A stretch of 64,000 nt of DNA from Gigantopelta aegis (taxonomy: Eukaryota > Mollusca > Gastropoda > Neomphalida > Peltospiridae). The notes below the pieces were generated by a model, which did no database searches, was not told where the DNA came from, and saw only the letters and a program-made list of their open reading frames with translations. Position numbers and translations under genes: made by a program. Where the stretch lies: NCBI RefSeq assembly GCF_016097555.1, contig NC_054701.1:2461540-2525539 (forward strand). Reading direction: 5' to 3'. This document shows positions 24,604-64,000 of this stretch, in pieces (the stretch's first letter is position 1; every line of letters begins with the position of its first letter).

Positions 24604-24735
24604 ATTTGCTGTCTGCATGCCCATTGGTCAGTGTTTATTTGCTGTCTGCATGCCCATTGGTCAGTGTTTATTTGCTGTCTGCGTGTTCATTGGTCAGTGC
24701 TTATTTGCTGTCTGCGTGTCCATTGGTTGCTGCAT
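24604..24735. repeat. 33 bp x4 array covering the end of TBL2
   Basis: On the minus strand each unit reads accaatgRRcaYgcagacag then caaataaRcactg. The first copy holds the predicted stop codon, and the next three contain AATAAA hexamers. Confidence 0.88.
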
Positions 24736-24758
24736 CCATAATGGCTGATAAGGAAGAT
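24701..24758 (-). CDS. TBL2: TBL2 exon 11: predicted terminal coding exon
   Basis: A strong pyrimidine tract and acceptor (tctttctttttgcag) open an exon in the required phase. It codes RSSLSAIMDAATNGHADSK and then TAA. The length and Lys ending suit the family C-terminus, but the sequence there is not conserved enough to prove it. The stop lies inside the first copy of a 33 bp tandem repeat whose later copies contain AATAAA. Confidence 0.62.
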
Positions 24759-27700
24759 CTGCAAAAAGAAAGAAAACAGAGTGTTACTTAGTTTTACTTA
24801 TATATCTACAGTGATACATGAATGCATCACCCTGTGGCTGGAGACACTCTAGACTTGTAATCTTTTTAGTACAGGACAAAATCAACCATGCATGTCTCAA
24901 AACACGATTTGTAGAAATAAGCTAGCGAGTATGAGTCTTAACGATGATGAAAAATTGGAAATTACTATGGTTCATAGAAGTCTAACATAATGATGGAAAT
25001 TCTGACCAATCCTTTAGAAAGAGAAAAGAAAGTTAATGTTTGCTTTGTTTAATGGCATCACTGAAGCACATTAATATATTAATCATTGGCTACTGGATGT
25101 CAAATATTTGGTCATGTTTGACTCGAATATGGTATTAGAGACTTGTAAAGAAACCCACTGTAGTCCCATATGCTACTCTTGTATGTTAGCACTGTAGAGC
25201 ACTGGTTAGAATGGGAAAAAACAATGGGTCCGTTTTTTAACCAAGCACTATAGCATTGTAACTGTCTAGACTCTATCCCTACTAAATTCCATGCACATGC
25301 ACCTGATAATAATAATAATAATAATAATAACAAGGTGTGTTACCGTGCTTCCTGTATCTGGACCCAGAATTACGGCCTATCTGCAGCAATGTACGGTAAT
25401 AACAACAAGGTGTGTTACCTGGCTTCCTGTATCTGGACCCAGAATTACGGCCTATCTGCAGCAATGTACGGTAATAATATAAGGTGTGTTCATACCTGGC
25501 TTCCTGTATCTGGACTCGAAGCCTCTCTTTCATGGCCCCGCCTGGTGACTTCCTTTCTTTCTCTTCTAGGTCGGCGACCGTCGCTCGATAGCCGGTGATA
25601 TTGTGAAAGACTTGTGCATGCTTGTCTCCCATAGAAACAAAGTATTTCCCACTGATGTCAAATATTAATGATGATATGGATTCTGAAACAAAATTCACGA
25701 CAACATGACCATATAAGTGCACAACATGAGTAACCAATAACAGTGCACAACATGAGTAACCAATAACAGTGCACAACATGAGTAACCAATAACATGGCAC
25801 AACATGAGTAACCAATAACAGTGCACAACATGAGTAACCAATAACTCCATCCATGTTTTGAAATTAGTCGATTAATCTTTTCAGGTCTGTGCTGGGAAGA
25901 CATCATCAACTGAGCTTGTTCGTTCAGGTCTGTGCTGGGAAGACAACATCAACTGAGCTTGTTCGTTCAGGTCTGTGCTGGGAAGACAACATCAACTGAG
26001 CTTGTTCGTTCAGGTCTGTGCTGGGAAGACATCATCAACTGAGCTTGTTCGTTCAGGTCTGTGCTGGGAAGACATCATCAACTGAGCTTGTTCGTTCAGG
26101 TCTGTGCTGGGAAGACAACATCAACTGAGCTTGTTCGTTCAGGTCTGTGCTGGGAAGACATCATCAACTGAGCTTGTTCGTTCAGGTCTGTGCTGGGAAG
26201 ACATCATCAACTGAGCTTGTTCGTCACATAAAACCAATAGCAGCACAGGGGTCCACAAACGTGAAATTGTGATAGTTGCCCGGTGGGCAACCAGTAGCTG
26301 AAGTTTGGTTGCCCAACATCATCTCTTGGTTGCCCACATATTTCATAAAATGTTTTATGAATATAATTTTGAACTGTCTTTAAAATGAAACTGAAATTTA
26401 AAATGTTTTTAGTATTATCATTACTTATCAGTTTAGTTTTATTTCTTTTTTAACATTATTTATCTACAGCTCAACTTCGCTTAGGCTGAAAAAAAGTTTT
26501 TTTGGTTTAACGACACCACTGGAGCACACTGATTAATTAATCATTAGCTATTGGATGTCAAACATTTGGTAATTCTGACTCGTAGTCGTCAGAGGAAACC
26601 CACTACATTTTTCCTAATGCAGCAAGGGATCTTTTATATGCACTTTCTCACAGACAGAAAGGCACATACCACAGCCTTTGTCCGGTTGTTGTGCACTGGT
26701 TGGAAAGAGAAAAAACCCAATCAGCTGAATGGATACACAGAGGTGGTTCGATCTCGCTTGGGCTGTCACAGTCATAATACTTTGTTGAACTCCGGGCTCA
26801 TCCAGGATTAAAAATACCTGTTGCCAAAAACATTGCCAAATGGGATTTTTATTTGCCATAATGAAAATGTTTTAGCCAAAATTGTTTTGTTTAGTACTGT
26901 ATAGAGTATTTATATATGAATATGAAAATGTATCTTTTTCAGCTAATTATGTACAAACTGGAATACATCTGAATAACAAAATTATCCCCGATCAAAATCA
27001 AAGACAGCAATGGGGGTAGGGGCAGTTAATATATTACTTTGATTTTTCAGTGGGTGAGGGGAGATATGCAGAGTTGGAAGCCAATGCCCTCTGCAAACAC
27101 ACCCCAAATTCTAAGGCCTATGGCATTAATAAAAATCTGAGAGCCAATACTCTTCTTCTTTTTTTAAACAGTGCTCATTATTTCTGTAAAATAGCAATCT
27201 TTATTTTGGTATGAACTGCTTTTAATTGTATTTTAAAATAACCCATCTATTCCCCAACAATTTCGTAATTTGCGCCATTTTGTTGATTTCCGCGTAGTGT
27301 TAAATGCTTGTTGTTGATTTCAGCTTGTAAAATACTTAGCCTAAGAATGCTGACTTCACCCTATGACAACTATCCATTTACGTCAAAAGGTTTTGATTAA
27401 AAAGATAATGAATTCAAATTTTACGGTCTTTTTAAAATCTAGCTTACTTTTGAGACGTCACCTCACAGTCAACAAATTTATATAATATTTTATCTCACAA
27501 ATATCATGATTATTTTTAACTAATTGTATTCAGTGTATGTTTAACTGCAATTTGTATAAATACTGCATGTTCCTTTCCCGCGATCGCAAAATGCATGAGT
27601 GCGAAATTAACAAAGACAACAGAAATAAACAAACGAAACAGCAATTAAGTATTCATTGATGCGAACAACTATTTGGTGGTGGGGGTTTTTCTCACAAATT

Positions 27701-30700
27701 TACATCAAGATTTACTTGCGTTTAATCGTATTGTTTAATGTCTGCAACGATGTCTTTTGACACGTGCAACAGTCTCGGCTGACTGTCAAGCATGACCTAT
27801 ATGCACACTGAGAACAGCCAACGAACGTTTTCCAAACGTTCGCGAACTATGCGATTGGTTCCCGACATGGACATTGGGTTTAATGTGAAGCGCATAAACC
27901 AGTTTAGCGGACGTGTTTGTTTTGCTCGGTCTAGCTGAACTTGGCCCTAGGCTACTTGTCTTTGGCCCTGAACTAGCATGTGTATTGAAACTGACACGCA
28001 ATTTCGGTCCGTTTTCATTACTTTGGCTCAAAGACTTTACAGAATTAAAATAACATGCTACAGATTTTTTAGACTTTTCTTGCATACATGTTGCCGTTAA
28101 CATTAATAACTGTGATTATTAAAATAAGCAAACACTGTTATGCTGAATTCTTGATGACACCGCTTCTCGTTACCAGTCGCGAGATCCGTTAATATTTGGT
28201 ATTATTATTATATGTTAGGTGTCGGATAGTTTATGTAACCGATTGTTCACATCTGAAGATAGAAAATGGCTTAGCCAAATTTTTAGCTCAGAACTGGATG
28301 GTTGTTGGCATAGTTTGTGGCCTTTCACATGTCTTGTGCCCTTTTCTAATAGCCACCATTCTGAAACGTATCTGTCTGCATTGAACTCGTCAAAATCATG
28401 CACGGTGGACGCTGAGTGGATATTTATATTGCCTGTCAGTCAAGTTATCAGTTTCGATACTTTTGAATTGCCCGTGACTGTCCGAGTGTCGGGAAGTTTT
28501 GTTTTTCATTTTACTTGTTTTATGATTTTCTTGGTTGCCCGTCGGGCAACTGTTTGACAAAGAATGGTTGCCCGCAACATATTTTGGTTGTCCCGGGCGC
28601 GCGGACAACTGATTTGTGCACCCCTGCAGCACACAGTGTCATAAAATGGTTAAAAAAATGAAGCGTATATTTAACAAGCACTGAGAGAGTACTGCTAAAG
28701 AAATACATGTCCCCTACTGAACCCAACAATGTTTCATATCTCCTAAATTCAAGGGCCATAACTCTGTGAAAAGTGGGTAAACCACCATAAAAGTTAAACT
28801 TGATCAGTAACAGTACATGATAAAGGTATATACAAAATGTCATATCAGTATCTTCAAGCATTGCAAAACAAAAGTCCGGAAAACATATTTTCATATCTCC
28901 TAAGTTTAAGGGCCATACCTCTGTCACAAATGGGTAATCGCCATGAAAGTCAAACTTGATCTGTAACAGTACATGATAAAGGTATACACAAAATTTCAGG
29001 TCAATATCTCCAGGCTTTCTAAAAAGAAAACATCTGGAAAACTATATGTGGGACAGACAGACACACAGACAGAAGGACGGAGATGAAACCTACAGTCCCC
29101 TCCTGTTGGACTGGCAGAGGACTAAATAAAATATATTTAAATAATTATTATCCAAAATGCTTGTATTTTATACTGTTTGAATACTGAATAAAATTCTAGT
29201 GATCCTAAAGTTTGTGTCCTCTGATGTTAGAACATAATCATTCCTCACGAAACCCATTGGCAGTTTGTGTAAAATTAAAGTAGCATAACCGACATATGAA
29301 CAAACTGATGGTTTGTGTGAAATATAACAGCAGTAGAACACATCATAATACTATTGTAAATGTAAAGTGAATGCATTTACACAGGAACTCAGTACATGTA
29401 GAGTATTTATGCCAGACATATATCTGTGTACCTGAATGAACGTTTTCTATGACCTCCTCCTCCTTGCCGGTCAGGGCGTTACATACAGAGATGGTGGTGT
29501 CCCCGGCTATAACGATGGTGCGCGCGTCGGGCGACAACACTATCAACCTGAGACACGGGTTACTCAACGTGCCTGTGAGTAGCAGCTTCGGGTCCTGATC
29601 ATACTCGTATTTCACTGTAACATACAAACATTTCAACAGTTATACAAACATTTCAACAGTTATACAAACACTCAACAGTTATACAAACATTTCAACAGTT
29701 ATACAAACATTTCAACCATATCAACCTGACTGGGGTTACTCAACGTGCCTGTGAGTAGAAGCTTTCGATCATGATTGTACTGTATTTCACTGTATCATAC
29801 AAACATTCATAGAAACATTTCAACGCTTATGCAAACTTTTCTACATTTACGCACAACTGTTATTTAAGGATTATTCACAACATTCCATATATTCATAAGC
29901 ATACACACTATGGACTAATTGTGAGTCTATGATAAGAATGAGCATAAGAAGGCCAAAAGATCTGGTGTGGGCTTTAACATCTTCACTTACCGTCCGTGTT
30001 CCAGTATTTCCATGTCCCATCTTTAGATACAGAAACCATACTGCAAAACAGACACAGGCATTGTGAAACATTACTTCAAAGGTCTGAGACATAGACATTC
30101 ACAAGTCCAAATTTTACATTAGTTTTGATTTTCAGTTTTCAAAAATATTCTATGACAAAACAGAACTGATTACTTAGTAAGATAATATATTAATGTGTTA
30201 TGTTCATATTTAGCTATGTGACTAGACAAAAAAGAACAACGTTTTTTTAAAAATTAAAGTTGTTACTGAATGCCAGATGAAGCTTAGAACACTATGTTTG
30301 TCCATTCCTTTCTTTTGTGACCCTTATGAACGTAGAGCAATTGCTGTGCTTGGCCATCCATCCATACTGACTCCACAAAATCTTTGGTCTCATACGTTTG
30401 ATATTAGTTTTATAAACTTCTTATAGGTTTATGAATTGTTTATAGAAGCATTCATTATATAACATTTGAGACATGCTGGCTAAAACCTTCATCATGTCAA
30501 TTGTAAAAGTTAATAAGAAAACACTTGATTGGCAAACTCCGGTTATGTGTGTAAACGATCCGGAAGTGACCAGTTGTGTGTATTGTCCTTTATAAGTTAA
30601 ATTAAATTAATAATAAAATAATACCTTTCCTTTATTTACAATGATTACTTTTATAAAATAAAAGTAATCTTGTTGGAAATTAATAAATAATATTGTACTT

Positions 30701-33700
30701 TTTGAAGAAACCGTTGAAGCAGGCGTCAAGACGAGTTCTGTTTTTGGCATTGACGGGTAAGTAAGTGTTTTGATAACTTGATTTAATTTTAGATCACAAC
30801 TAAACAAATATGTCTTACTAAGTAGAAAATTAGTTGTACAAGACCTATAATATTATCTAACTGAAAATGATTATATAAATTAATATCTTAAATAATTAGA
30901 CTTTAATTTGATTGAAAACTATTTGGAACCGCCCTCACGCCATAGTAAACAACAAAATCCTGTTTTGTGCTTAGAACTCCTATGGCATGGAAATTAACTA
31001 AAATTAACATTAATTTCAATAAAATATTTTTTGTTTAACCTATTTCTGGCTCTAACAGAAATAGACGTAATTAATACAGTGATCAAAATATATATTAGGA
31101 TGTTGTGTTAATCGCGAGATAGGCTTGTGTTACTGATTTACCACATCCGTCAGTTTTTGATTTCACCCCAGGAATTATCTCCCCTCTAGTTTAATTATAA
31201 ATTCGTCTCGGGCACCTTTACGTCGCACAGAGAAGAATACAAATGTATTTATGTGAATGAATCTAGTGTTATTTATATCATTTGTTGATCTTGCTCATTT
31301 TAGTAGTGTGTTATTTATGTCAACAAAGATAATTCTTTGTTGACATGCAAAGCTTATATACTGTATAAATATCTGGCCGATCGGTGTGTGGAGCCTTTGA
31401 ACAACTAGTAGTTACACTTAGAAATATATCCGGTCACGGCAACACTACCATATAACCCACACCACCCTGAACCGGTTACAACAATATATATATAATTTGG
31501 ATATATTAATAGAGACGGTGTCACCTAAGTTGTGTTTTTCCTTGTGTGCTAAAAGTAAAGGTACGAGTGTTTCCTGAACATATATCATAGTGGGTCTATT
31601 AAATACCACATTTGTAACAATACTGACTACTTACCGACTAGAATCACTGTTAAAACTAAAGCTATGGACCCCAGCACCATGACCTTTGAGTTCAAAAGCT
31701 CTTTTAGCTTCTTTGAAGTTGCCCGACTTGTCAAACACCACCTCCCAGACTTTGATGTCAGGAGTGAAACCTGCAACAAAAACACTGAACTCTTAACAAC
31801 TCCTTTGAGACAAATGACATGCATGGATCACAAGGTGTAAATAATTTCTGACCTAAGTAAGTGAAGCTCTATTCATTGCTGTACAGACTAGCTAACAGAA
31901 GGCAAGACTACCTGATTGGCTGATGTTTATTAAGCTTGCATTCATTGTGTGTGTATGTTGATGTAGTGGTTGTGTATTCTGTCATTGTTCAATAATGAAA
32001 TGAATCAATGTTTTCACTAATAACCATGTTGCTTTGAGAAAGCATTATGTCTGAAATGTTTTTAGTTCCCATGAGCTTTTCCTCAAACAACAAGGACAAG
32101 AAGACTTTTTGGCTGAAGTCGGGAATTTGTAAACAAATTTGGAGATGTTCATTACTGCCACTTCTACAGTGTAGGTGTGGCACTAAAATGTCAAAATTAA
32201 TTTTACATACTGAGAAATCATTTATATTTGTGGGGTTAAATTAATTTTACATACTGAGAAATCATTTACATACTGAGAAATCATTTATATTTGTGGGGTT
32301 AAATTAATTTTACATACTGAGAAATCATTTATATTTGTGGGGTTAAATTAATTTTACATACTGAGAAATCCTTTATATTTGTGGGGTTAAATTAATTTTA
32401 CATACTGAGAAATCCTTTATATTTGTGGGCTTAAATGTTCGGGCTTTTGCTAACATACTGTACACATTTCGTTCAGTACTTAAATTTGTAGGTCTAAAAT
32501 GTAGTATCCTAAATTCACATCGTAGGTAAGCCTATATATATATTATATTTTTGTTATGTTTTTAAATTTGTTGACGGCTCTAGTCCATGAATTACACATA
32601 AATTAGACAACCCCGAATCAAGATGACTTCGCAGTAATGAGATAATCAGCAGAGAACTGACTCACCTGATGAAGCGACAAATCGTCCGCAGTGAGACACG
32701 GCGCCATACGAGTTGTTCATCTGATGTGTGTCGATGGCGGCCAGTAGTTCCCCCTTGATGGTCCACACATTGAGCTGCGTGTCGCGGTGACACGTCATGA
32801 TGAACTTGCCACTGCTAGAAATACCAATACTGATGATCTCCGCCGAGTGGGTCTGCTGTAGAGATAATACAACATCAAAATACAGGTTGAAATACCGCCG
32901 AGTGGGTCTACTTTAGAGATAATACAGCATCAAAATACAGGTTGAAATACCGACACTGATGATCTCGGCTGAGTGGGTCTGCTGTAGAGATAATACAGCA
33001 TCAAAACACAGGTGGAAATACCGACACTGATGATCTCGGCCGAGTGGGTCTGCTGTAGAGATAATACAGCATACAGCATCAAAACACAGGTTGGAATACC
33101 GACACTGATGATCTCGGCCGAGTGGGTCTGCTGTAGAGATAATACAGCATCAAAACACAGGTGGAAATACCGACACTGATGATCTCGGCCGAGTGGGTCT
33201 GCTGTAGAGATAATACAGCATCAAAACACAGGTGGAAATACCAACACTGATGATCTCGGCCGAGTGGGTCTGCTGTAGAGATAATACAGCATCAAAATAC
33301 AGGTTGAAATACCGCCGAGTGGGTCTGCTTTAGAGATAATACAGCATCAAAATACAGGTTGAAATACCGACACTGATGATCTCGGCCGAGTGGGTCTGCT
33401 GTAGAGATAATACAGCATCAAAACACAGGTGGAAATACCGACACTGATGAACTCGGCCGAGTGGGTCTGCTGTAGAGATAATACAGCATCAAAACACAGG
33501 TGGAAATACCGACACTGATGATCTCGGCCGAGTGGGTCTGCTGTAGAGATAATACAGCATCAAAACACAGGTGGAAATACCGACACTGATGAACTCGGCC
33601 GAGTGGGTCTGCTGTAGAGATAATACAGCATCAAAACACAGGTGGAAATACCGACACTGATGATCTCGGCCGAGTGGGTCTGCTGTAGAGATAATACAGC

Positions 33701-36700
33701 ATCAAAACACAGGTGGAAATACCGACACTGATGAACTCGGCCGAGTGGGTCTGCTGTAGAGATAATACAGCATCAAAACACAGGTGGAAATACCGACACT
33801 GATGATCTCGGCCGAGTGGGTCTGCTGTAGAGATAATACAGCATCAAAACACAGGTGGAAATACCGACACTGATGATCTCGGCCGAGTGGGTCTGCTGTA
33901 GAAATAATACAGCATCAAAACACAGGTGGAAATACCGACACTGATGATCTCGGCCGAGTGGGTCTGCTGTAGAGATAATACGCATCAAAACACAGGTGGA
34001 AATACCGACACTGATGATCTCGGCCGAGTGGGTCTGCTGTAGAGATAATACAGCATCAAAACACAGGTGGAAATACCCACTGATGATCTCGGCCGAGTGG
34101 GTCTGCTGTAGAGATAATACAGCATCAAAACACAGGTGGAAATACCGACACTGATGATCTCGGCCGAGTGGGTCTGCTGTAGAGATAATACGCATCAAAA
34201 CACAGGTGGAAATACCGACACTGATGATCTCGGCCGAGTGGGTCTGCTGTAGAGATAATACAGCATCAAAACACAGGTGGAAATACCGACACTGATGATC
34301 TCGGCCGAGTGGGTCTGCTGTAGAGATAATACAGCATCAAAACACAGGTGGAAATACCGACACTGATGATCTCGGCCGAGTGGGTCTGCTGTAGAGATAA
34401 TACAGCATCAAAACACAGGTGGAAATACCGACACTGATGATCTCGGCCGAGTGGGTCTGCTGTAGAGATAATACAGCATCAAAATACAGGTTGAAATACC
34501 GAGTGGGTCTGCTTTAGAGATAATACAGCATCAAAATACAGGTGGAAATACCGACACTGATGATCTCGGCCGAGTGGGTCTGCTGTAGAGATAATACAGC
34601 ATCAAAACACAGGTGGAAATACCGACACTGATGAACTCGGCCGAGTGGGTCTGCTGTAGAGATAACACAGCATCAAAACACAGGTGGAAATACCGACACT
34701 GATGATCTCGGCCGAGTGGGTCTGCTGTAGAGATAATACAGCATCAAAACACAGGTGGAAATACCGACACTGATGATCTCGGCCGAGTGGGTCTGCTGTA
34801 GAGATAACACAGCATCAAAACACAGGTGGAAATACCGACACTGATGAACTCGGCCGAGTGGGTCTGCTGTAGAGATAATACAGCATCAAAACACAGGTGG
34901 AAATACCGACACTGATGATCTCGGCCGAGTGGGTCTGCTGTAGAGATAACACAGCATCAAAACACAGGTGGAAATACCGACACTGATGATCTCGGCCGAG
35001 TGGGTCTGCTGTAGAGATAACACAGCATCAAAACACAGGTGGAAATACCGACACTGATGATCTCGGCCGAGTGGGTCTGCTGTAGAGATAATACAGCATC
35101 AAAACACAGGTGGAAATACCGACACTGATGATCTCGGCCGAGTGGGTCTGCTGTAGAGATAATACAGCATCAAAACACAGGTGGAAATACCGACACTGAT
35201 GATCTCGGCCGAGTGGGTCTGCTGTAGAGATAATACAGCATCAAAACACAGGTGGAAATACCGACCCGATGATCTCGGCCGAGTGGGTCTGCTGTAGAGA
35301 TAATACAGCATCAAAACACAGGTGGAAATACCGACACTGATGATCTCGGCCGAGTGGGTCTGCTGTAGAAATAATACAGCATCAAAACACAGGTGGAAAT
35401 ACCGACCCGATGATCTCGGCCGAGTGGGTCTGCTGTAGAAATAATACAACCAGGTATTCAAACAGGTATGTAGAAACCTGCTAAAATATTATTTCTAGAC
35501 TTGATATACCCCATGAAATAGAATTTGTATAAGGACAAGACAAGGAATTTTTTTTTTTTTTTTCTGCCCTGTGATCATTTGAACTAATTAAAAACTGTTT
35601 TTCTGTTATTATGGTAATGGTATATTATGTTACATTATGATGGGCAACAGGCTTTTGGTTCTGTGATTTTGCCGACATGTTACTGACATACTACCAGAAA
35701 TGATCATATGGATGAAGCATGGGGTAACTTCATTTTAATTTCGTTTCAAATTATACAAAACATGCATTTTTTAATATGAAATGTAGAAAAAATCAAGAAA
35801 AAAAATTGGTTGGATGTACTATTTTAGTATTATTGTCATGTTTTACAATATAAGTGCTAAAGCAATACATGGGTCAAAAACATTTTCATATATCCTTAGT
35901 TCAAGGGTCATAACCCTGTAAAAACGGATAAATCACCATCAAGGAAGGAAATGGTTTATTTAACGATGCACTCAACACATTTTATTTACAGTTATATGGC
36001 GTCGGACATATGGTTAAGGACCACACATATATTGAGGGAGGAAATCCACTGTCGCCACTTCATGGGCTACTTTTTTTTATTAGCAGCAAGGGATCTTTTA
36101 TATGCACCATCCCATAGATAGGATAGCACATACCACGGCCTTTGATGTACCAGTCATGGTGTACTGGCTGGAGTGAGAAATAGCCCAATGGGCCTAGTGA
36201 CGGGGATCGATCCCAAACTGACCGTGCACCAAGCGAATGCTTTACCACTGGGCTTTGTCTTGCCCCCAAAATCACCATGAAAGTCAAACTTAATCTGTAA
36301 CAGTAAATGATAAAGCTTTATAACAAATGTCAGTCCACTATCTTGAGGCACCGTGAAAAAGAGATTTGGAATTTTTTATATATTTATATATAAAATCATA
36401 AGTTCCAGGGCCATAACTCTGTCAAAAATGGGTAAATCACCATAAAAGTCAAACTTGATCAAGAACATGATAAAGCTATATACAAAATGTCTGCTCAAAA
36501 GCAAAAAAAAGTCCTGAAAACTAATTATTTCAAATATCTTAAGTTCAAGGGCCATAATTCTGTCAAAAATAGGTACATCCTCATTGATCGATAAAGCTAT
36601 ACACAAAATTTCAGCTTAGTATCTTGCGGAATTGTGAAAAATAAGTCCGGAAAACTATATGTGGGACAGACAGACAAACAGTCAGACAGCAGGATGGAAA

Positions 36701-48642: not shown

Positions 48643-48718
48643 ATGTCGAATCGTCTTGTTACTGACAGCTATAAAAAAGTGAAAACTTCGCGACAGACCA
48701 AGGATGTAAAAGAAGCTG
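48643..48718 (+). CDS. POLD4: POLD4 exon 1: PCNA-binding N-terminus
   Basis: Codes MSNRLVTDSYKKVKTSRQ and TKDVKEA (25 codons plus G), donor GCTG|GTAAGT. This is the first ATG after an AT-rich leader, and the RLVTDSY motif supports the start. Confidence 0.9.
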
Positions 48719-51700: not shown

Positions 51701-52812
51701 AGAAAAATACTATAACTCCATTTCATTCTATTGATGCAAATTGAAATATATTTATTTAAATAGTTTATTATACTATCAAGTCATTTATGTTGTTTTACAA
51801 GTCAGGTTGATGAAAGCGAAGCGCCTTGTCGTAAATTAGAGCGTTTGTTTACACTGTGCATAGAGGAGATGGACGGAGCTGACGTCACTTCGCCCCAAGC
51901 TATACCGGACGTCACAAAAATGAAACAAAATGGCTGCCCCCAGTTAGCAGGAATAATCTTGGTGTTTTATTAACTCTAAAATTGCGCGTTTTTCATTTGT
52001 TAAAGTGTCAGTATGTGTTGGTGGTCTGAGTATGCATCTTTTCAACACATAAGGCTCTTATTTGAGTTTACCCTCCCTTTAATGTGCAAATTTAAAATGG
52101 CGGAGAAATGTTTAAATGCCATTCAGTGTTCGAGATAAAAAAAATTGTACAGTATCCCAGTTGGGTACAAACATTTTAAAATCTGGTATCCCACCTGAAA
52201 ATTTAGTATCCCACTTTTGGATATGGTTACCTGATATTCAAATATCAAGCAAGCTCATTTTAATTTTAGTAAATAGAAAAAGGCTGTATTGGTTTAAAAC
52301 ATTTTATAATGGCTACTTGCCTTTTCGGTGTATTTCAGTGAGTAAATATTGTTATGGCGTAGCATTAGGTACGAGATTGAAACTACTGTGACTTAACTTT
52401 GCCGGTAAATGACTTTATTGTTTCAATGAAAAATAAAAATTATAAAATCCCGGCGGCATACTGGGTTCTTGAAGTCTGGTATCCAAAATTAAAATCTGGG
52501 ATATCGGGATACCATTAATCTTGAACACTGAAATTGGAAGATTTATTTTGTTAATAATGACACAAGTACTTCAATCAGGATTTAGTGAGTATGGTAGATT
52601 AAATAAATAATTTGTTTATGTGTCCATTTGTTGCACTATTTCGCTTGAGAAACAGTTGAAACATGGTGCTACAAGTTTTAAATACCAGCTATATATAGGG
52701 TAATGTAACCATTAAATTCGGACATAGAAAGAACCACACTTTCTACGTCCTTTTGAACTAGGAACAGTTGGCAGTGGGTTTTTTTTGTAGATCTAGAACT
52801 CACTCTCTCTTT

Positions 52813-52898
<86 letters not shown>

Positions 52899-55800
52899 AG
52901 TGTTTTTGCAAAATTGATTCATTGTGTTTCTTTGTTAACTATTATTAAACCAATTTTCTTTCCCATTTGATAAACTCAGAATTGTGTATATTTTGGATTT
53001 TCAGATATGTACTCAGATATATGTGTTTATGACTTGCATATTAACCACAACTAGTATAAGTTGAATGTCAGGATCGTGCTTAGCTGACAGAGTAGTGTGA
53101 GCCATTTGTACATGTAGCAGTCTAAACGCTGCAATCTGAGACAAATGTATCAGGTGTTTCTCTTTTGTTGATGCAGGATCAAGCAAGATCAGTGGTGAAG
53201 TGAAGAAAAACTTTGATATTTTACATGAGTTTGACCTCACACTAGAGTATGGACCGTGTATGGGTAAGATGCTTAGTATTCTACAATATGGATGATGTGT
53301 TATTAGAATCGTAGTTATACATACATGAGTTTGACCTCACACTAGAGTGTGGACCGTGTATGGGTAAGATGCTTAGTATTCTACAATATGGATGATGTGT
53401 TATTAGAATCCACAGTCGTGTAGAGATAGTTATACATACATGTGTTTGACCTCACACTAGAGTGTGGACCGTGTATGGGTAAGATGCTTAGTATTCTACA
53501 ATATGGATGATGTGTTATTAGAATCCACAGTCGTGTAGAGATAGTTATACATACATGTGTTTGACCTCACACTAGAGTATGGACCGTGTATGGGTAAGAT
53601 GCTTAGTATTCTACAATATGGATGATGTGTTATTAGAATCCACAGTCGTGTAGAGATAGTTATACATACATGAGTTTGACCTCACACTAGAGCATGGACC
53701 GTGTATGGGTAAGATGCTTAGTATTCTACAATATGGATGATGTGTTATTACAATCCACAGTCGTGTAGAGATAGTTATACATACATGTGTTTGACCTCAC
53801 ACTAGAGCATGGACCGTGTATGGGTAAGATGCTTAGTATTCTACAATATGGATGATGTGTTATTACAATCCACAGTCGTGTAGAGATAGTTATACATACA
53901 TGAGTTTGACCTCACACTAGAGCATGGACCGTGTATGGGTAAGATGCTTAGTATTCTACAATATGGATGATGTGTTATTACAATCCACAGTCGTGTAGAG
54001 ATAGTTATACATACATGTGTTTGACCTCACACTAGAGCGTGGACCGTGTATGGGTAAGATGCTTAGTATTCTACAATATGGATGATGTGTTATTACAATC
54101 CACAGTCGTGTAGAGATAGTTATACATACATGTGTTTGACCTCACACTAGAGCATGGACCGTGTATGGGTAAGATGCTTAGTATTCTACAATATGGATGA
54201 TGTGTTATTACAATCCACAGTCGTGTAGAGATAGTTATACATACATGAGTTTGACCTCACACTAGAGCATGGACCGTGTATGGGTAAGATGCTTAGTATT
54301 CTACAATATGGATGATGTGTTATTACAATCCACAGTCGTGTAGAGATAGTTATACATACATGTGTTTGACCTCACACTAGAGTGTGGACCGTGTATGGGT
54401 AAGATGCTTAGTATTCTACAATATGGATGATGTGTTATTACAATCCACAGTCGTGTAGAGATAGTTATACATACATGTGTTTGACCTCACACTAGAGTGT
54501 GGACCGTGTATGGGTAAGATGCTTAGTATTCTACAATATGGATGATGTGTTATTACAATCCACAGTCGTGTAGAGATAGTTATACATACATGTGTTTGAC
54601 CTCACACTAGAGTGTGGACCGTGTATGGGTAAGATGCTTAGTATTCTACAATATGGATGATGTGTTATTACAATCCACAGTCGTGTAGAGATAGTTATAC
54701 ATACATGTGTTTGACCTCACACTAGAGTGTGGACCGTGTATGGGTAAGATGCTTAGTATTCTACAATATGGATGATGTGTTATTACAATCCACAGTCGTG
54801 TAGAGATAGTTATACATACATGTGTTTGACCTCACACTAGAGTGTGGACCGTGTATGGGTAAGATGCTTAGTATTCTACAATATGGATGATGTGTTATTA
54901 CAATCCACAGTCGTGTAGAGATAGTTATACATACATGTGTTTGACCTCACACTAGAGTGTGGACCGTGTATGGGTAAGATGCTTAGTATTCTACAATATG
55001 GATGATGTGTTATTACAATCCACAGTCGTGTAGAGATAGTTATACATACATGTGTTTGACCTCACACTAGAGTGTGGACCGTGTATGGGTAAGATGCTTA
55101 GTATTCTACAATATGGATGATGTGTTATTACAATCCACAGTCGTGTAGAGATAGTTATACATACATGTGTTTGACCTCACACTAGAGCATGGACCGTGTA
55201 TGGGTAAGATGCTTAGTATTCTACAATATGGATGATGTGTTATTACAATCCACAGTCGTGTAGAGATAGTTATACATACATGTGTTTGACCTCACACTAG
55301 AGCATGGACCGTGTATGGGTAAGATGCTTAGTATTCTACAATATGGATGATGTGTTATTACAATCCACAGTCGTGTAGAGATAGTTATACATACATGTGT
55401 TTGACCTCACACTAGAGCATGGACCGTGTATGGGTAAGATGCTTAGTATTCTACAATATGGATGATGTGTTATTACAATCCACAGTCGTGTAGAGATAGT
55501 TATACATACATGTGTTTGACCTCACACTAGAGCATGGACCGTGTATGGGTAAGATGCTTAGTATTCTACAATATGGATGATGTGTTATTACAATCCACAG
55601 TCGTGTAGAGATAGTTATACATACATGTGTTTGACCTCACACTAGAGCATGGACCGTGTATGGGTAAGATGCTTAGTATTCTACAATATGGATGATGTGT
55701 TATTACAATCCACAGTCGTGTAGAGATAGTTATACATACATGTGTTTGACCTCACACTAGAGTGTGGACCGTGTATGGGTAAGATGCTTAGTATTCTACA

Positions 55801-58800
55801 ATATGGATGATGTGTTATTACAATCCACAGTCGTGTAGAGATAGTTATACATACATGTGTTTGACCTCACACTAGAGTGTGGACCGTGTATGGGTAAGAT
55901 GCTTAGTATTCTACAATATGGATGATGTGTTATTACAATCCACAGTCGTGTAGAGATAGTTATACATACATGTGTTTGACCTCACACTAGAGTGTGGACC
56001 GTGTATGGGTAAGATGCTTAGTATTCTACAATATGGATGATGTGTTATTACAATCCACAGTCGTGTAGAGATAGTTATACATACATGTGTTTGACCTCAC
56101 ACTAGAGTGTGGACCGTGTATGGGTAAGATGCTTAGTATTCTACAATATGGATGATGTGTTATTACAATCCACAGTCGTGTAGAGATAGTTATACATACA
56201 TGTGTTTGACCTCACACTAGAGTGTGGACCGTGTATGGGTAAGATGCTTAGTATTCTACAATATGGATGATGTGTTATTACAATCCACAGTCGTGTAGAG
56301 ATAGTTATACATACATGTGTTTGACCTCACACTAGAGTATGGACCGTGTATGGGTAAGATGCTTAGTATTCTACAATATGGATGATGTGTTATTACAATC
56401 CACAGTCGTGTAGAGATAGTTATACATACATGTGTTTGACCTCACACTAGAGCATGGACCGTGTATGGGTAAGATGCTTAGTATTCTACAATATGGATGA
56501 TGTGTTATTACAATCCACAGTCGTGTAGAGATAGTTATACATACATGTGTTTGACCTCACACTAGAGTGTGGACCGTGTATGGGTAAGATGCTTAGTATT
56601 CTACAATATGGATGATGTGTTATTAGAATCCACAGTCGTGTAGAGATAGTTATACATACATGTGTTTGACCTCACACTAGAGTGTGGACCGTGTATGGGT
56701 AAGATGCTTAGTATTCTACAATATGGATGATGTGTTATTACAATCCACAGTCGTGTAGAGATAGTTATACATACATGTGTTTGACCTCACACTAGAGTGT
56801 GGACCGTGTATGGGTAAGATGCTTAGTATTCTACAATATGGATGATGTGTTATTACAATCCACAGTCGTGTAGAGATAGTTATACATACATGTGTTTGAC
56901 CTCACACTAGAGTGTGGACCGTGTATGGGTAAGATGCTTAGTATTCTACAATATGGATGATGTGTTATTACAATCCACAGTCGTGTAGAGATAGTTATAC
57001 ATACATGTGTTTGACCTCACACTAGAGTGTGGACCGTGTATGGGTAAGATGCTTAGTATTCTACAATATGGATGATGTGTTATTACAATCCACAGTCGTG
57101 TAGAGATAGTTATACATACATGTGTTTGACCTCACACTAGAGCATGGACCGTGTATGGGTAAGATGCTTAGTATTCTACAATATGGATGATGTGTTATTA
57201 CAATCCACAGTCGTGTAGAGATAGTTATACATACATGTGTTATTACAATCCACAGTCGTGTAGAGATAGTTATACATACATGTGTTATTACAATCCACAG
57301 TCGTGTAGAGATAGTTATACATACATGTGTTATTACAATCCACAGTCGTGTAGAGATAGTTATACATACATGTGTTATTACAATCCACAGTCGTGTAGAG
57401 ATAGTTATACATACATGTGTTATTACAATCCACAGTCGTGTAGAGATAGTTATACATACATGTGTTATTACAATCCACAGTCGTGTAGAGATAGTTATAC
57501 ATACATGAGTTATTACAATCCAGTCGTGTAGAGATAGTTATACATACATGAGTTATTACAATCCACAGTCGTGTAGAGATAGTTATACATACATGTGTTA
57601 TTACAATCCACAGTCGTGTAGAGATAGTTATACATACATGTGTTATTACAATCCACAGTCGTGTAGAGATAGTTATACATACATGTGTTATTACAATCCA
57701 CAGTCGTGTAGAGATAGTTATACATACATGAGTTATTACAATCCACAGTCGTGTAGAGATAGTTATACATACATGTGTTATTACAATCCACAGTCGTGTA
57801 GAGATAGTTATACATACATGAGTTATTACAATCCACAGTCGTGTAGAGATAGTTATACATACATGTGTTATTACAATCCACAGTCGTGTAGAGATAGTTA
57901 TACATACATGAGTTATTACAATCCACAGTCGTGTAGAGATAGTTATACATACATGTGTTATTACAATCCACAGTCGTGTAGAGATGTGTTATTACAATCC
58001 ACAGTCGTGTAGAGATAGTTATACATACATGTGTTATTACAATCCACAGTCGTGTAGAGATAGTTATACATACATGTGTTATTACAATCCACAGTCGTGT
58101 AGAGATAGTTATACATACATGTGTTATTACAATCCACAGTCGTGTAGAGATAGTTATACATACATGTGTTATACATACATGAGTTATTACAATCCACAGT
58201 CGTGTAGAGATAGTTATACATACATGTGTTATTACAATCCACAGTCGTGTAGAGATAGTTATACATACATGTGTTATTACAATCCACAGTCGTGTAGAGA
58301 TAGTTATACATACATGTGTTATTACAATCCACAGTCGTGTAGAGATAGTTATACATACATGAGTTATTACAATCCACAGTCGTGTAGAGATAGTTATACA
58401 TACATGAGTTATTACAATCCACAGTCGTGTAGAGATAGTTATACATACATGAGTTATTACAATCCACAGTCGTGTAGAGATAGTTATACATACATGAGTT
58501 ATTACAATCCACAGTCGTGTAGAGATAGTTATACATACATGAGTTATTACAATCCACAGTCGTGTAGAGATAGTTATACATACATGAGTTATTACAATCC
58601 ACAGTCGTGTAGAGATAGTTATACATACATGAGTTATTACAATCCACAGTCGTGTAGAGATAGTTATACATACATGAGTTATTACAATCCACAGTCGTGT
58701 AGAGATAGTTATACATACATGAGTTATTACAATCCACAGTCGTGTAGAGATAGTTATACATACATGAGTTATTACAATCCACAGTCGTGTAGAGATAGTT

Positions 58801-61800
58801 ATACATACATGAGTTATTACAATCCACAGTCGTGTAGAGATAGTTATACATACATGAGTTATTACAATCCACAGTCGTGTAGAGATAGTTATACATACAT
58901 GTGTTATTACAATCCACAGTCGTGTAGAGATAGTTATACATACATGTGTTATTACAATCCACAGTCGTGTACAGATAGTTATACATACATGTGTTATTAC
59001 AATCCACAGTCGTGTACAGATAGTTATACATACATGTGTTATTACAATCCACAGTCGTGTACAGATAGTTATACATACATGTGTTATTACAATCCACAGT
59101 CGTGTACAGATAGTTATACATACATGTGTTATTACAATCCACAGTCGTGTACAGATAGTTATAGTTATACATACATGTGTTATTACAATCCACAGTCGTG
59201 TACAGATAGTTATACATACATGAGTTATTACAATCCACAGTCGTGTACAGATAGTTATACATACATGAGTTATTACAATCCACAGTCGTGTAGAGATAGT
59301 TATACATACATGAGTTATTACAATCCACAGTCGTGTAGAGATAGTTATACACACATGAGTTATTACAATCCACAGTCGTGTAGAGATAGTTATACACACA
59401 TGTGTTATTACAATCCACAGTCGTGTAGAGATAGTTATACACACATGTGTTAGTTATTACAATCAATCCACAGTCGTGTAGAGATAGTTATACACACATG
59501 AGTTATTACAATCCACAGTCGTGTAGAGATAGTTATACACACATGAGTTATTACAATCCACAGTCGTGTAGAGATAGTTATACACACATGAGTTATTACA
59601 ATCCACAGTCGTGTAGAGATAGTTATACACACATGTGTTATTACAATCCACAGTCGTGTAGAGATAGTTATACACACATGAGTTATTACAATCCACAGTC
59701 GTGTAGAGATAGTTATACACACATGTGTTATTACAATCCACAGTCGTGTAGAGATAGTTATACACACATGAGTTATTACAATCCACAGTCGTGTAGAGAT
59801 AGTTATACATACATGAGTTATTACAATCCACAGTCGTGTAGAGATAGTTATACATACATGTGTTATTACAATCCACAGTCGTGTAGAGATAGTTATACAT
59901 ACATGTGTTATTACAATCCACAGTCGTGTAGAGATAGTTATACTGAGTTTACTCTTTCAAGTATGAACCACATTGTATATGTTGTATACATAATTAAGAT
60001 TCCATTGATTTGGGCTATTTCTCGCTCCAGCCAATCACTACGACTAGTATATCAAAGGTGGTGGTATGTGCTATCCTGTCTGTGGTCTTGCTACTAATGG
60101 AAAAGTAGCAGGTTTTATCTCTAAGATTATGCCAAAATTACCAAATGCTTGACATCCGATAGGCGATGATTAGTAAACCAATGTGCTCTAGTGGTGGTGT
60201 TAAAGAAAGCAAACTTTAATTAGTGCATAAAAGAGAAATGTGTGAAAGTATATTTTGTGGATGAAATACAGCAAGATCATACCAAGATGTAGTTCAGTGT
60301 ACGGCCTGCTTTCCAATGATGATTTTTCTTTAATTAGTGCATAAAAGAGAAATGTGTGAAAGTATATTTTGTTGATGGAATACAGCAAGATCATACCAAG
60401 ATGTAGTTCAGTGTACGGCCTGCTTTCCAATGATGATTTTTCTTTAATTAGTGCGTAAAAGAGAAATGTGTGAAAGTATATTTTGTGGATGGAATACAGC
60501 AAGATCATACCAAGATGTAGTTCAGTGTACGGCCTGCTTTCCAATGATGATTTTTCTCAAGAGGATTACTAAATAACAAAATTTTATGTTGTCCGAGTTT
60601 ACTTTAGGGTGTATACTACCAAATCAAATCCCATAGACGACAATAGTAACATATGTGGCTAAAACTCCTACCTGCAACGTATCAACCGACATAAATGCCA
60701 CGGATATAAATACTACCACCCCTTACACTTAAAATGAATCAGAAAAAAATGGGGCTCAAGCTGCTCGTTTCTGAGATAACGGGTAGCGTCTATGACTACC
60801 CTAGTTTCGCACAAAATTCGAGTACTTTTTTTTACAGGTACCCCATACATGTTTCAAGCACAAGGCTACTTGACACATTGGTACTAGATGAAATAAAATT
60901 GCAATTTTTTTTTACCCAGATGAAACTATTATTTTTTACAACCAACACACTCACATTTATAACCAATCACAGGACTTGTGGTGTTCACTTCTCTATCAAA
61001 AGTTCGGTGCACCTCACACTTTGACCCAGCCGGAAGTTATTTGGTTTAGTACTACCTTTAAGCTGAATGTAAATGCTTCACGTTATGACGTCACCAACTG
61101 TTTTCCAGCATGCTGAATGTCCGTGTGTGGAATCGCGTGTATGGAAAGGTACTATGTACATGCACTGTATTGATAAATTGGCACACGACATTGTGTTGGT
61201 GGAAAGCAGGCCTGAGGGTACTAGTGTGAGGGGTTGTAACAATTCATTGCTCTTAGTTTTCCCCTTAATACCAGTCTTTTACAGATGCTAGATCAGACTG
61301 TGGTATGTGCTGTCTTGTCTGTGTGACAGAAGCAGGTTTCCCTTAATTCTTCAGACCTCGTCTTTAAGTAATCAGTAACCATACACCAGCTACCAAATGG
61401 CCTTTGTTAACAATGGCTGGAGTTAGCAGAAATATGTTCCTTTTCCGTCTTTCTGGAGTTATTAACCGTTGACATTTAGAAATGGGAATAAAGTAATGAG
61501 ATGTGATTTTTATTTTTATTTATGTGTTTTTTTTGTGAGAATAAAGTAATGGATATGTCATTTAATATTTCTTGGGAAGGATAAATTACTAGATATGTGA
61601 TTTGTCCTCTACCGCTCCAACCAGGGGGGACTATCAGTTTTGTTTCTGTTTGTCTCGCAGTATGATTTTCCGGTCTTTTCTTTGCAATGCTTCAATATAT
61701 TGAGCTGAATTTTTGCACATGCCTTTATCATGTCGAGTTACAGATGAAGTTTGAGTTTTATGAGGTGTTGAAAACTTTTTGACAGCGATATGGCCCTTGA

Positions 61801-63201
61801 CTTAGGAAATAGTGCCAGACGTAGCCCAGTGGTAAAGCGTTCGCTTGATGTGCAGTCGGTCTAGGATCTATCCCCATCGGTGGACCCATTGGTCTATTTC
61901 TCGTTCCAGCCAGTGCTCCACAACTGGTGTAACAAAGGCCATAGTATGTACTATCATGTGTGGGATGGTGCATATGAAAGATCCCTTGCTGCTAATCGAA
62001 AAGTGTAGCCCATGAAGTAACAACAGCGAATTTCCTATCTCAATACCTGTGTGGTCCATAACCTTATGTCTGACGCCATATAACCATAGATAAAATGTGT
62101 TGAGTGCATCGTTAAATAAAACATTTCCTTCCTTCCTTGACTTCAGGAATCTTCTTTCTACTGCTTCAAGATGTTGACCTATAATTTTGTGTTTACCTTT
62201 ATTACACAGATCAAGTTTGTGTTTCATGGGTATTTCACCCACTCAAAAATGTTATATTTAGTAATGTAAATGTAAATTATATATTACAATCACATGAAAA
62301 GTTGTTGGTGCTGGTAGGTGGCAATACTTTCAGAATGCTTGTTTAATATTTATTCAGAAGGATAAATTACGGAATACGTTGTTTTAAATATTGTACTTGC
62401 ATAGATGACATACTGAATATGTTACGTACCTTCGCTTGGAAGGATAAAGTAGGTTTAGTTTAGTTTTTGTCTAACAACACCACTAGAGCAGATTTATTTA
62501 TTAATCATCGGCTATTGAATGTGAAACATTTGATAATTTTGACATAGTCTTAGAGAGGAAACCCACTACCTTTTTCCATTAGTAGCAAGGGATCTTTTAT
62601 ATGTACCATCCCACAGACGGGACAACACATAAACCATGGCCTTTGATATACCAGTCATGGTGCATTGGCTGGAACGAGAAATATCCCAATGGGCCCACCA
62701 ACGGAGATCAATCCAAAACCGCAAGGGCTTTACCACTGGGCTACATCCCGCCCCTAGGATAAAGTAATGCAGTAAAGTATGTTATTTAATATTGGTTTTC
62801 AAGAATTTGTTGTTTAATTGTAGACACAAGGATAAAGTAATGCATATATGTTATTTAATATTGGTTTTCAAGAATTTGTTGTTTAATTGTAGACACAAGG
62901 ATAAAGTAATGGATGTGATGTTTTTAAAACACTAATAGTCTGTAATCACACAGATAACCATAATGATATGTTGTTTAATTGTAGACACAAGGATAAAGTA
63001 ATGGATGTGATGTTTTTAAAACACTAATAGTCTGTAATCACACAGATAACCATAATGATATGTTGTTTAATTGTATGTGTTACTTGTAGGTATTTCTCGA
63101 CTGGAAAGATGGGAGAGAGCTGAGAAACATGGACTGAACCCGCCAGCTCACGTTCGCGATCTCATCATCGCACACAAAGATGATGACCTCTACACACAAT
63201 G
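48643..63201 (+). CDS. POLD4: POLD4, DNA polymerase delta subunit 4 (p12), partial at 3' end
   Basis: Joined exons 48643-48718, 53177-53263 and 63090-63201 give 91 codons plus two bases. The human protein is 107 aa, so only a short last exon is missing beyond the right edge. The N-terminus MSNRLVTDSYKKVK matches human KRLITDSYPVVK, the PCNA-binding segment of p12. FDLTLEYGPC-MGISRLERW (residues 44-62) matches FDLAWQYGPC-TGITRLQRW, and AEKHGLNPPAHV matches AKQMGLEPPPEV. As known for the family, p12 stabilises the delta holoenzyme and is removed after DNA damage; function here is by homology. Intron 1 is 4.5 kb and intron 2 is 9.8 kb, the latter mostly satellite grown from exon 2. Reading on past exon 3 without splicing gives only W and stop. 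Confidence 0.92.
48835..49000. repeat. 22-24 bp tandem repeat, about 7 copies, POLD4 intron 1
   Basis: Variants of cagttcgcccccaaatagga with tgt. Confidence 0.9.
49039..49111. mobile_element. 73 bp perfect palindrome with 9 bp direct repeats
   Basis: Arms of 36 bp start tagttcataaaaataaactc and end gcacat, around a single central base. gtctggacc lies directly on both sides (49030-49038 and 49112-49120). Nine-base duplications are typical of Mutator-like elements; family assignment is inference. Confidence 0.75.
49528..49682. repeat. Dispersed repeat, copy 2
   Basis: Partner of 47620-47772, with gttcatgaacattttcagta in place of gttcaggaacattttcataa. Confidence 0.85.
50278..50303. repeat. Poly-C run
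   Basis: About 26 C in a row in POLD4 intron 1. Confidence 0.95.
50331..50767. repeat. Dispersed element, copy 1 (437 bp)
   Basis: Starts agtcccaaagaaaagaaaat, ends actctcccattaaaggaagg. Shared over its length with 51595-52083. Confidence 0.88.
50829..50971. mobile_element. MITE with long inverted repeats (about 143 bp)
   Basis: gtccataattttcaacattt appears at the left and, inverted, at the right, with arms of about 40-45 bp. tta on each side may be the target duplication. The centre is G-rich. Confidence 0.7.
51595..52083. repeat. Dispersed element, copy 2 (489 bp)
   Basis: Same direction as copy 1, with an extra about 65 bp (around 51897-51962) containing ggacgtcacaaaaatgaaac that copy 1 lacks. 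Confidence 0.88.
52124..52530. mobile_element. hAT-like MITE (407 bp)
   Basis: Left cagtgttcgagat and right (inverted) cagtgttcaagat, with tatccc-rich inner repeats. No clean target duplication. Confidence 0.6.
52797..52895. repeat. (TC)n microsatellite
   Basis: About 80 bp of uninterrupted TC after a short T-rich lead, in POLD4 intron 1. Confidence 0.97.
53177..53263 (+). CDS. POLD4: POLD4 exon 2: source exon of the 115 bp array
   Basis: The acceptor is gatgcag|GATC, the donor GTATGG|GTAAGATG. Codes GSSKISGEVKKNFDIL and HEFDLTLEYGPCM. The last about 37 exon bases with the donor are the start of the tandem repeat that fills the next 4 kb. Confidence 0.92.
53226..57235. repeat. 115 bp satellite, about 35 copies, seeded by the POLD4 exon 2 donor end
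   Basis: Each unit contains tttgacctcacactagag, a variable dinucleotide (ta, tg, ca or cg), tggaccgtgtatgg|gtaagatg and then intron sequence to gttatacatacat. The first unit overlaps the real end of exon 2. The variable dinucleotide runs in blocks (mostly ca 53.7-54.3 kb, tg 54.4-55.1, ca 55.2-55.7, tg 55.8-56.3), showing block-wise expansion. Confidence 0.96.
57231..59943. repeat. 45 bp satellite, about 60 copies, a sub-unit of the 115 bp repeat
   Basis: The unit is the last 45 bp of the 115 bp repeat (gtgttattacaatccacagt, cgtgtagagatagttata, catacat) with the exon part lost. Because 45 is divisible by three, both strands are open for up to 643 codons; these frames are repeat only. Variant blocks: atgagttatt at 58.3-58.9 kb, gtacagatag at 58.95-59.25, cacacatg at 59.35-59.77. 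Confidence 0.96.
60008..60215 (+). mobile_element. 5'-truncated SINE, tail type A
   Basis: Begins gggctatttctcgctccag, then ggtatgtgctatcctgtctg, and ends aatgtgctctagtggtggtg. The tRNA head is missing. Confidence 0.82.
60216..60556. repeat. 114 bp tandem array, 3 copies
   Basis: Units of tttaattagtgcataaaaga to tgctttccaatgatgatttt, nearly identical. The in-phase minus frame is repeat translation. Confidence 0.94.
60600..61062. mobile_element. Candidate MITE (about 460 bp)
   Basis: tttagggtgtatactaccaaat-like left end and, inverted, ttaaaggtagtactaaacc right end are loosely complementary. The interior 96-codon frame has no recognised domain. Confidence 0.4.
61610..62240 (-). repeat. Mollusc-type interspersed repeat, split by a SINE
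   Basis: Reverse orientation of the 28.7 kb family: gtcctctaccgctccaacca, tgaatttttgcacatgcc and, after the SINE, gacttcaggaatcttctttc. Confidence 0.65.
61807..62136 (+). mobile_element. SINE, head type 1 / tail type B
   Basis: Head gtagcccagtggtaaagcg (A box) and ggtctaggatctatcccc (B box), core agatcccttgctgctaatcg, tail tgttgagtgcatcgttaaat. The flanks share ttgactt(a/c)agga. Confidence 0.9.
62453..62755 (-). mobile_element. SINE, head type 1 / tail type A, with target duplication
   Basis: 11 bp repeat aggataaagta at 62442-62452 and 62756-62766. Tail aacaacaccactagagcaga. Head ends ggctacatcccgcccct. Confidence 0.9.
62756..63075. repeat. Nested direct repeats before the POLD4 exon 3 acceptor
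   Basis: gacacaaggataaagtaatg recurs with two unit types (about 76 bp and about 100 bp). Each contains ttgtttaattgtag, close to the real acceptor context. Confidence 0.88.
63090..63201 (+). CDS. POLD4: POLD4 exon 3: conserved C-terminal core
   Basis: The acceptor is tacttgtag|GTATTT, the donor CAATG|GTGAGT. Codes GISRLERWERAEKHGLNPPA, then HVRDLIIAHKDDDLYTQ. The last 55 exon bases and the donor are repeated in tandem downstream to the window edge. Confidence 0.92.
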
Positions 63202-64000
63202 GTGAGTTTTTACTTCCACCAGCTCACGTTCGCGATCTCATCATTGCACACAAAGATGATGACCTCTACACACAATGGTGAGTTTTTATTTCCACCAGCT
63301 CACGTTTGTGATCTCATCATCGCACACAAAGATGATGATCTCTACACACAGTGGTGAGTTTTTATTTCCACCAGCTCACGTTCGTGATCTCATCATCGCA
63401 CACAAAGATGATGATCTCTACACGCAGTGGTGAGTTCTACACAATGGTGAGTTTTTACTTCCACCAGCTCATGTTTGCGATCTCATCATCGCACACAAAG
63501 ATGATGATCTCTACACACAGTGGTGAGTTTTTATTTCCACCAGCTCACGTTCGTGATCTCATCATCGCACACAAAGATGATGATCTCTACACACAGTGGT
63601 GAGTTCTACACAATGGTGAGTTTTTACTTCCACCAGCTCATGTTTGCGATCTCATCATCGTACACAAAGATGATGATCTCTACACACAATGGTGAGTTTT
63701 TATTTCCACCAGCTCACGTTCGCAATCTCATCATCGCACACAAAGATGATGATCTCTACACACAGTGGTGAGTTCTACACAATGGTGAGTTTTTACTTCC
63801 ACCAGCTCATGTTTGCGATCTCATCATCGCACACAAAGATGATGATCTCTACACACAATGGTGAGTTTTTATTTCCGCCAGCTCACGTTCGCGATCTCAT
63901 CATCGCACACAAAGATGATGACCTCTACACACAATGGTGAGTTTTTACTTCCACCAGCTCACGTTCGCAATCTCATCATTGCACACAAAGATGATGACCT
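63202..64000. repeat. 76 bp (and 17 bp add-on) array seeded by the POLD4 exon 3 donor end
   Basis: Each 76 bp unit is gtgagtttttatttccaccag, split here as gtgagttttta and tttccaccag, followed by CTCACGTTCGCGATCTCAT to CTACACACAATG. The second part is the last 55 bases of exon 3. Some units add gtgagttctacacaatg. About 10 copies are seen and the array continues past the edge. Confidence 0.95.

Follow-up and report, generated by a model that had tools for sequence, protein, structure and literature searches.

Do exon-intron junctions attract tandem repeats, or do repeats arise everywhere and last longer at junctions? The question was raised by a 64,000-nucleotide stretch of the genome of Gigantopelta aegis, a neomphaline gastropod of deep-sea vents (NCBI RefSeq assembly GCF_016097555.1, contig NC_054701.1, forward-strand positions 2,461,540 to 2,525,539; the whole stretch is hereafter called the window). 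A first-pass annotation of the window had reported that six of the 14 exons of two neighboring genes, TBL2 and POLD4, have their ends duplicated in tandem, from one extra copy to about 60, and had considered that a process starting duplications at exon-intron junctions would be new. We found that the arrays are a known kind of structure, the "mirages" of amphioxus, in a new lineage, and that there is a measurable excess of them at splice junctions.

To place the arrays, models of TBL2 and POLD4 were built by hand from the sequence, yielding 14 exons with 25 splice junctions inside the window, all 25 of the GT-AG type. The 11 exons of TBL2 join into one complete reading frame, and exons 1 to 3 of POLD4 give an open partial frame. 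The models, and the arrays called in or beside their exons by Tandem Repeats Finder (TRF) or by alignment, are as follows.

24701..44192, minus strand: TBL2 gene, hand model with GT-AG introns, a single open frame and a WD40 match
44192-44057, 39496-39296, 38395-38344, 37839-37777, 36960-36852 and 32855-32666, minus strand: TBL2 exons 1 to 6
31770-31635, 30040-29991, 29614-29432, 25682-25496 and 24758-24701 (including the stop codon), minus strand: TBL2 exons 7 to 11
48643..63201, plus strand: POLD4 gene, exons 1 to 3 (48643-48718, 53177-53263 and 63090-63201), PF04081 match of 80.4 bits
32840..35448, minus strand: TBL2 exon 6 acceptor array (junction 32856/32855), 71-bp unit, about 37 copies (TRF)
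29622..29716, minus strand: intron-tail array 8 bp from the TBL2 exon 9 acceptor, 20-bp unit (TRF)
29717..29845 (approximate ends), minus strand: diverged second copy of the TBL2 exon 9 acceptor and about 80 nt of the exon (alignment)
25322..25515, minus strand: TBL2 exon 10 donor array (junction 25496/25495), 75-bp unit, 2.6 copies (TRF)
24595..24727, minus strand: TBL2 exon 11 array over the last codons, the stop codon and the 3' untranslated region, 33-bp unit, four copies (TRF)
53222..57241, plus strand: POLD4 exon 2 donor array (junction 53263/53264), 115-bp unit, about 34 copies (TRF)
57190..59943, plus strand: 45-bp array downstream of POLD4 exon 2, about 61 copies (TRF)
63143..64000, plus strand: POLD4 exon 3 donor array (junction 63201/63202), 76-bp unit (TRF)
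25716..25845, minus strand: 26-bp-unit array inside the intron, stopping 34 bp short of the TBL2 exon 10 acceptor and not spanning that junction
62756..63075, plus strand: 69/92-bp-unit array inside the intron, stopping 15 bp short of the POLD4 exon 3 acceptor and not spanning that junction

As listed, 5 of the 25 junctions are tandemly duplicated, namely the acceptors of TBL2 exons 6 and 9 and the donors of TBL2 exon 10 and POLD4 exons 2 and 3. The unit at TBL2 exon 6 consists of the intron tail, the CAG acceptor and the exon head, and the AG is kept in all 37 junction copies. At POLD4 exon 2 the exon end lies inside the unit, the first spacing is 100, and the GT is kept in 34 of 34 junction copies. 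The POLD4 exon 3 array runs 502 bp beyond the window, to coordinate 64502, and reaches about 18 copies altogether. At TBL2 exon 9 the two copies of the acceptor are separated by the 20-bp intronic array and agree in 97 of 127 alignment columns. The sixth exon of the first-pass count, TBL2 exon 11, falls away, as its array marks the coding end, at the stop codon, and no splice junction. The upper bound of about 60 copies had likewise come from the 45-bp array, which arose from the intron portion of the 115-bp unit and contains no exon sequence; the spanning arrays have at most about 37 copies. It holds true that arrays occupy both acceptor and donor sides in two genes on opposite strands, and that the repeats are direct and locus-specific.

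Whether five duplicated junctions exceed expectation was assessed against the array content of the window. TRF arrays with units of at least 10 bp numbered 33 and made up 33% of its length, and much of the impression of six exons out of 14 stems from this high density. Large arrays also lie in positions 1-24600, where no gene was modelled (57 bp x 22 at 14251-15502 and 57 bp x 55 at 20023-23144), so arrays are not restricted to TBL2 and POLD4. Because intron positions multiply as an array expands while the junction stays single in each array, founding units were counted. With each array collapsed to one such unit, 4 junctions were covered versus 0.92 expected (P = 0.014), and 10 arrays lay within 100 bp of a junction versus 3.5 expected (P = 0.002). 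The window had been picked since a reader noticed its arrays, and these P values are thus only suggestive.

Replication was sought in genes outside the window. Exons of two unrelated families, chaperonin TCP-1 and myosin head, were matched to the genome by profile, and their junctions were set by the profile edge together with the splice-site score. Of the 64 chaperonin matches, 15 were left out (13 from small contigs, one in a gene with a single long exon and one stray match), and two long single-exon matches were dropped as well; one match that extended across an intron was cut back to the last exon it covered. Of the ends of the remaining 47 exons, 10 (first, last or unresolved) were set aside and 84 junctions were kept. 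Among 80 myosin matches, 17 on small contigs, three on chromosomes and one duplicate exon were left unused, giving 59 exons and 118 junctions. The muscle myosin exons had their best structural matches in squid and scallop, as expected of a molluscan host. Long open frames were considered as a selection bias and rejected, because the chaperonin exons proved to have ordinary open frames.

In this set of 202 junctions from 30 gene loci, TRF arrays spanned 10 junctions (5 acceptors and 5 donors) and abutted 9 more (4 and 5, respectively), with the array ending no more than 12 bp away on the intron side. These 19 at-junction arrays compare with 5.55 expected from the rate at 13-500 bp and the mean unit length (P = 6e-6). 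The result was similar for well-scoring splice junctions (17/169 versus 5.03 expected) and in a re-placement simulation on the first 164 junctions (16 versus 5.3 expected; P = 0.00025). At least one junction array was present in 12 of the 30 loci, with an observed/expected ratio of 3.4 (gene bootstrap, 1.84-5.07); the pattern described in the first-pass annotation thus recurs in other parts of the genome. Moving outward from the junction, the rate of first arrays per kb was 3.98 at 1-12 bp, 0.29 at 13-50 bp, 0.22 at 51-100 bp, 0.81 at 101-200 bp, 0.51 at 201-350 bp and 0.38 at 351-500 bp. Five 4-kb stretches taken at round-number positions held 3 arrays covering 1.2% of bases, indicating that arrays are commoner in or near the sampled genes than there. 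Junction arrays were found on several chromosomes, with unit lengths of 20-158 bp, and in the loci displayed the unit sequences differ from one another and include local exon sequence. Examples are an 80-bp donor unit ending CTCATCGAGAGG|gtgagtca, an 86-bp acceptor unit ending ...tctctccag|GTTATTCAG, and acceptor units of 44 and 50 bp in a chaperonin gene.

The excess was then measured without reliance on TRF. With the window included, 40-mers from exon ends recurred within the neighboring 500 bp of intron (score of at least 32) at 18 of 206 junctions, versus 5 of 206 for exon-middle 40-mers, four of them at junctions already counted, and 0 of 206 for shuffled flanks. Two matches, one exon-end (C8:45240178) and one exon-middle (C2:15596654), were not confirmed as junction copies, only overlapping intron being matched. 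Alignment of the 40-mer matches uncovered 6 further spanning duplications outside the window that TRF had missed, 2 of them at arrays scored as abutting, so that TRF and alignment combined gave 16 of 202 junctions spanned and 7 abutted only. In a like-for-like test of intron points, of which 207/1330 were repeated, weighting by inverse copy number gave 5.1% versus 9.5% at junctions. This 1.9-2.0-fold excess is probably a lower bound, since the fetched flanks shorten the copy counts. We thus estimate the excess at about two-fold for spanning arrays and up to three-fold for arrays at or next to junctions.

Exon interiors behaved differently from exon ends. Not one array lay wholly within the 107 complete exons (18.6 kb, window included), versus 9.1 expected at the intron rate, a figure that is somewhat lower if whole units must fit. 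Among 107 arrays, again including the window, the share at junctions rose with copy number, from 4/43 for those of fewer than three copies through 8/36 for three to eight to 12/28 for at least eight (at least eight versus fewer, P = 0.007). The exon ends of the duplications are scattered, lying 8 to 79 nt inside the exon.

The splice signals within the arrays are largely intact. In 14 TRF-spanning arrays, GT or AG was kept in 127 of 136 junction copies, and many copies score close to the functional site, which implies that the spliceosome passes them over. In the array at C1:27053251, the GT is kept in 0 of 5 copies. The annotated G. aegis proteins compared, TBL2 isoform X2 and POLD4, follow the exon-proximal copies. 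Our TBL2 model is identical over 453 amino acids to annotated isoform X2 apart from a single additional Gln where exon 6 begins, at an acceptor that reads CAG|CAG. This tandem acceptor (window 32858-32853) sits at the same junction as the 37-copy array, and isoform X2 lacks the Gln that splicing at the earlier of the two potential cut sites would add. The POLD4 model is identical to the annotated 99-amino-acid protein over the 91 residues encoded in the window, and the final eight are encoded past its end.

We consider that ordinary minisatellite birth and turnover, together with selection that lets arrays survive where the exon-proximal copy keeps the splice site, probably accounts for these observations. 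A local tandem duplication would by chance span an exon-intron junction, or end just before it, and would then expand and contract as any minisatellite does. Duplications within exons would be purged because they alter the protein. A duplication of an exon end, we infer, would be almost neutral, since the original splice site survives whole in the copy adjoining the exon body; exon definition would pick this intact site, which among donors is the first copy and among acceptors the copy closest to the donor at the other end of the exon. Arrays would thereby become trapped at the edges of constrained sequence, be it a donor core, an acceptor core or a stop codon. An array in such a place could not be removed from the exon side without damage and would live longer and grow there. 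The array over the TBL2 stop codon, which has the same type of structure as the junction arrays, counts in favor of trapping, and the copy-number trend suggests that arrays persist and grow where constrained sequence ends, rather than being born there preferentially. A splice-directed duplication machine would not be needed.

Several results weigh against this explanation. Trapping by selection alone predicts a graded enrichment near exons, and the excess of array edges is instead sharp (3.98 per kb at 1-12 bp). The arrays at C4:3310785-3311331, C8:71018307-71018802 and C7:4058545-4058815 end 3-8 bp before a splice junction with no exon copy visible, and this sharp edge is left unexplained. 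The copy-number trend weakened once weak arrays were dropped (4/16, 8/32 and 12/26 for 74 arrays with a score of at least 150; P = 0.07), so it is a lean, not proof. Two further results show no junction excess at all: whole arrays shifted circularly around the window covered 8.3 junctions on average versus the 4 observed by TRF, and junction-centered 40-mers were repeated outward today in 19/200 cases versus 114/921 for intron 40-mers.

These last two nulls are what pure chance would predict in a minisatellite-rich genome, where arrays on one-third of the window must hit some exon ends, and intron sequence (114/921 40-mers; 207/1330 points) is repeated at least as often as junction sequence. 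That six of 14 exons lie beyond chance, taken by itself, was accordingly rejected, as arrays fill so much of the window and the whole-array shift gives no excess. Whether junction arrays beat chance depends on the null model chosen: there is no excess for shifted whole arrays or present-day positions, and there is one for founding units and, at 1.9-2.0-fold, in the like-for-like test. Chance alone is improbable, however, since a 1.9- to 3.4-fold excess persists after collapsing or weighting and was replicated outside the window, and since exon-end 40-mers are copied more often than exon-middle or shuffled ones.

A mutational process directed at junctions, through transcription or R-loop breaks, a nucleosome edge, a base-composition step or recombination initiation, would fit the spike of array edges at 1-12 bp (9 versus 1.1 expected; P = 2.5e-6), the spanning arrays (10 versus 4.5 expected; P = 0.016), their spread over 12 of 30 loci and both junction types, and the density near exons (first arrays at 0.49 per kb between 13 and 500 bp versus 3 arrays in the 20 kb of round-number stretches). 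We nevertheless regard it as rather unlikely. The like-for-like ancestral test gives only a 1.9-2.0-fold excess. Of the nine arrays that abut a junction, nested spanning duplications account for two and a low-complexity CTGT/CT tract for one. Support is weak for a process starting duplications at junctions, as suggested in the first-pass annotation, given the scattered break points, the low-copy arrays that show no enrichment (4/43), and a stop-codon array that requires no splice site. Selection on array persistence explains the scattered breaks, the copy-number trend and the stop-codon array at least as well. Retention of spare splice-site copies because they strengthen or regulate splicing would account for the GT or AG in most copies and for the many that score near the used site. 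We hold it to be very improbable, as the retention of 127/136 is about what neutral copies of such similarity would be expected to show, the array at C1:27053251 has lost every GT, and the exon end is uncopied in most abutting arrays. Assembly artefact, or insertion of transposons or introners, is hardly credible; arrays are difficult to assemble and other repeats are plentiful in the window, but the units in the loci displayed differ in length and sequence and hold local exon sequence, the copies carry substitutions, and the pattern is found on several chromosomes.

A broader reading is that splice junctions are hotspots of minisatellite birth or retention in animal lineages as unrelated as cephalochordates and this gastropod, affecting about 1 junction in ten, and that array edges are fixed no more than about 12 bp away from the splice core. 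We put it forward as a tentative possibility. If it were true, such hotspots would keep duplicated splice sites constantly available, on which intron sliding, alternative splicing and intron gain could draw.

Some further observations concern the surroundings of the genes examined. A motif scan of about 3.2 kb following the POLD4 exon 3 donor array did not find the last exon of the gene, and no array was present at a second POLD4-like match, on a small contig. By eye, positions 49038-49112 of the window form a palindrome of about 75 bp with apparently perfect arms, and POLD4 intron 1 holds two similar copies of a dispersed element (50527-50760 and 51776-52060). Chaperonin and myosin matches on small contigs (C758, C861, C950, C1023, C1076, C1234, C1254 and C782), many with internal stops, may be contaminant or symbiont-associated sequence. 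One myosin exon seems to be present twice, at C11:41587 and C11:4761549, with the same splice sequence on its flanks; the two sites lie 4.7 Mb apart, which suggests either that a block was duplicated or that the assembly contains a duplicate.

Mirages, reportedly first described by Canestro et al. in 2002, have until now been a lancelet curiosity. A literature search that covered the top-ranked matches, with subscription papers outside its scope, found neither mirages in a mollusc nor their frequency relative to introns. As far as this search shows, the new elements are mirages in a mollusc, their frequency, and the concentration of array edges within 12 bp of splice sites. Their being frequent enough to count in a mollusc makes their origin, by junction-directed mutation or by selection trapping, testable. 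They also offer a natural system for studying how the spliceosome disregards intact decoy sites and how introns are gained by duplication.

Minisatellites of earthworm metallothionein genes form arrays in intron 1, and the available part of the report does not mention junction spanning (PMC12783039). Introners and other mobile introns differ from the G. aegis units, which in the loci displayed vary between loci and contain local exon sequence. Closer to our arrays are the internal tandem repeats described at exon-intron boundaries in human segmental duplications, with units averaging 30 bp x 4 (PMC2812944); these too are minisatellites at exon-intron boundaries, whereas, according to the accessible text, they lie in recent paralogues and are linked to new introns or coding repeats. 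In the potato RdRp gene, an intron is described as gained through a tandem duplication across an intron-exon boundary (PMC4974935). As in G. aegis, the duplication takes in intron and exon and copies the acceptor; a new intron resulted there, whereas in G. aegis the arrays are intronic and the annotated proteins match the copy nearest the exon.

The closest match is with amphioxus, whose mirages have the same structure, so that the arrays are not new in kind. In the portions of the reports available, amphioxus mirages are described in Adh3, the globins BflGb6 and BflGb9, PGBD5 and troponin C as minisatellite-like repeats of variable copy number, with locus-specific units of about 10-160 bp, over both types of intron-exon boundary (PMC3087553, PMC3902484). 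Many copies carry AG or GT, regular splicing and the mRNA are said to be undisturbed, and the mechanism is called unclear (PMC3087553). The G. aegis arrays show the structural features of mirages that were testable, namely boundary-spanning tandem units, both boundary types, locus-specific lengths and splice dinucleotides in the copies. The arrays are kept out of the normal message in amphioxus, as far as described, and out of the annotated protein in G. aegis. The host is a gastropod mollusc and not a cephalochordate, a difference in the known range of mirages rather than in any structural requirement. Compared with the amphioxus cases so far as these are described, G. aegis has up to about 37 spanning copies, and it has arrays that stop 2-12 bp before the junction as well.

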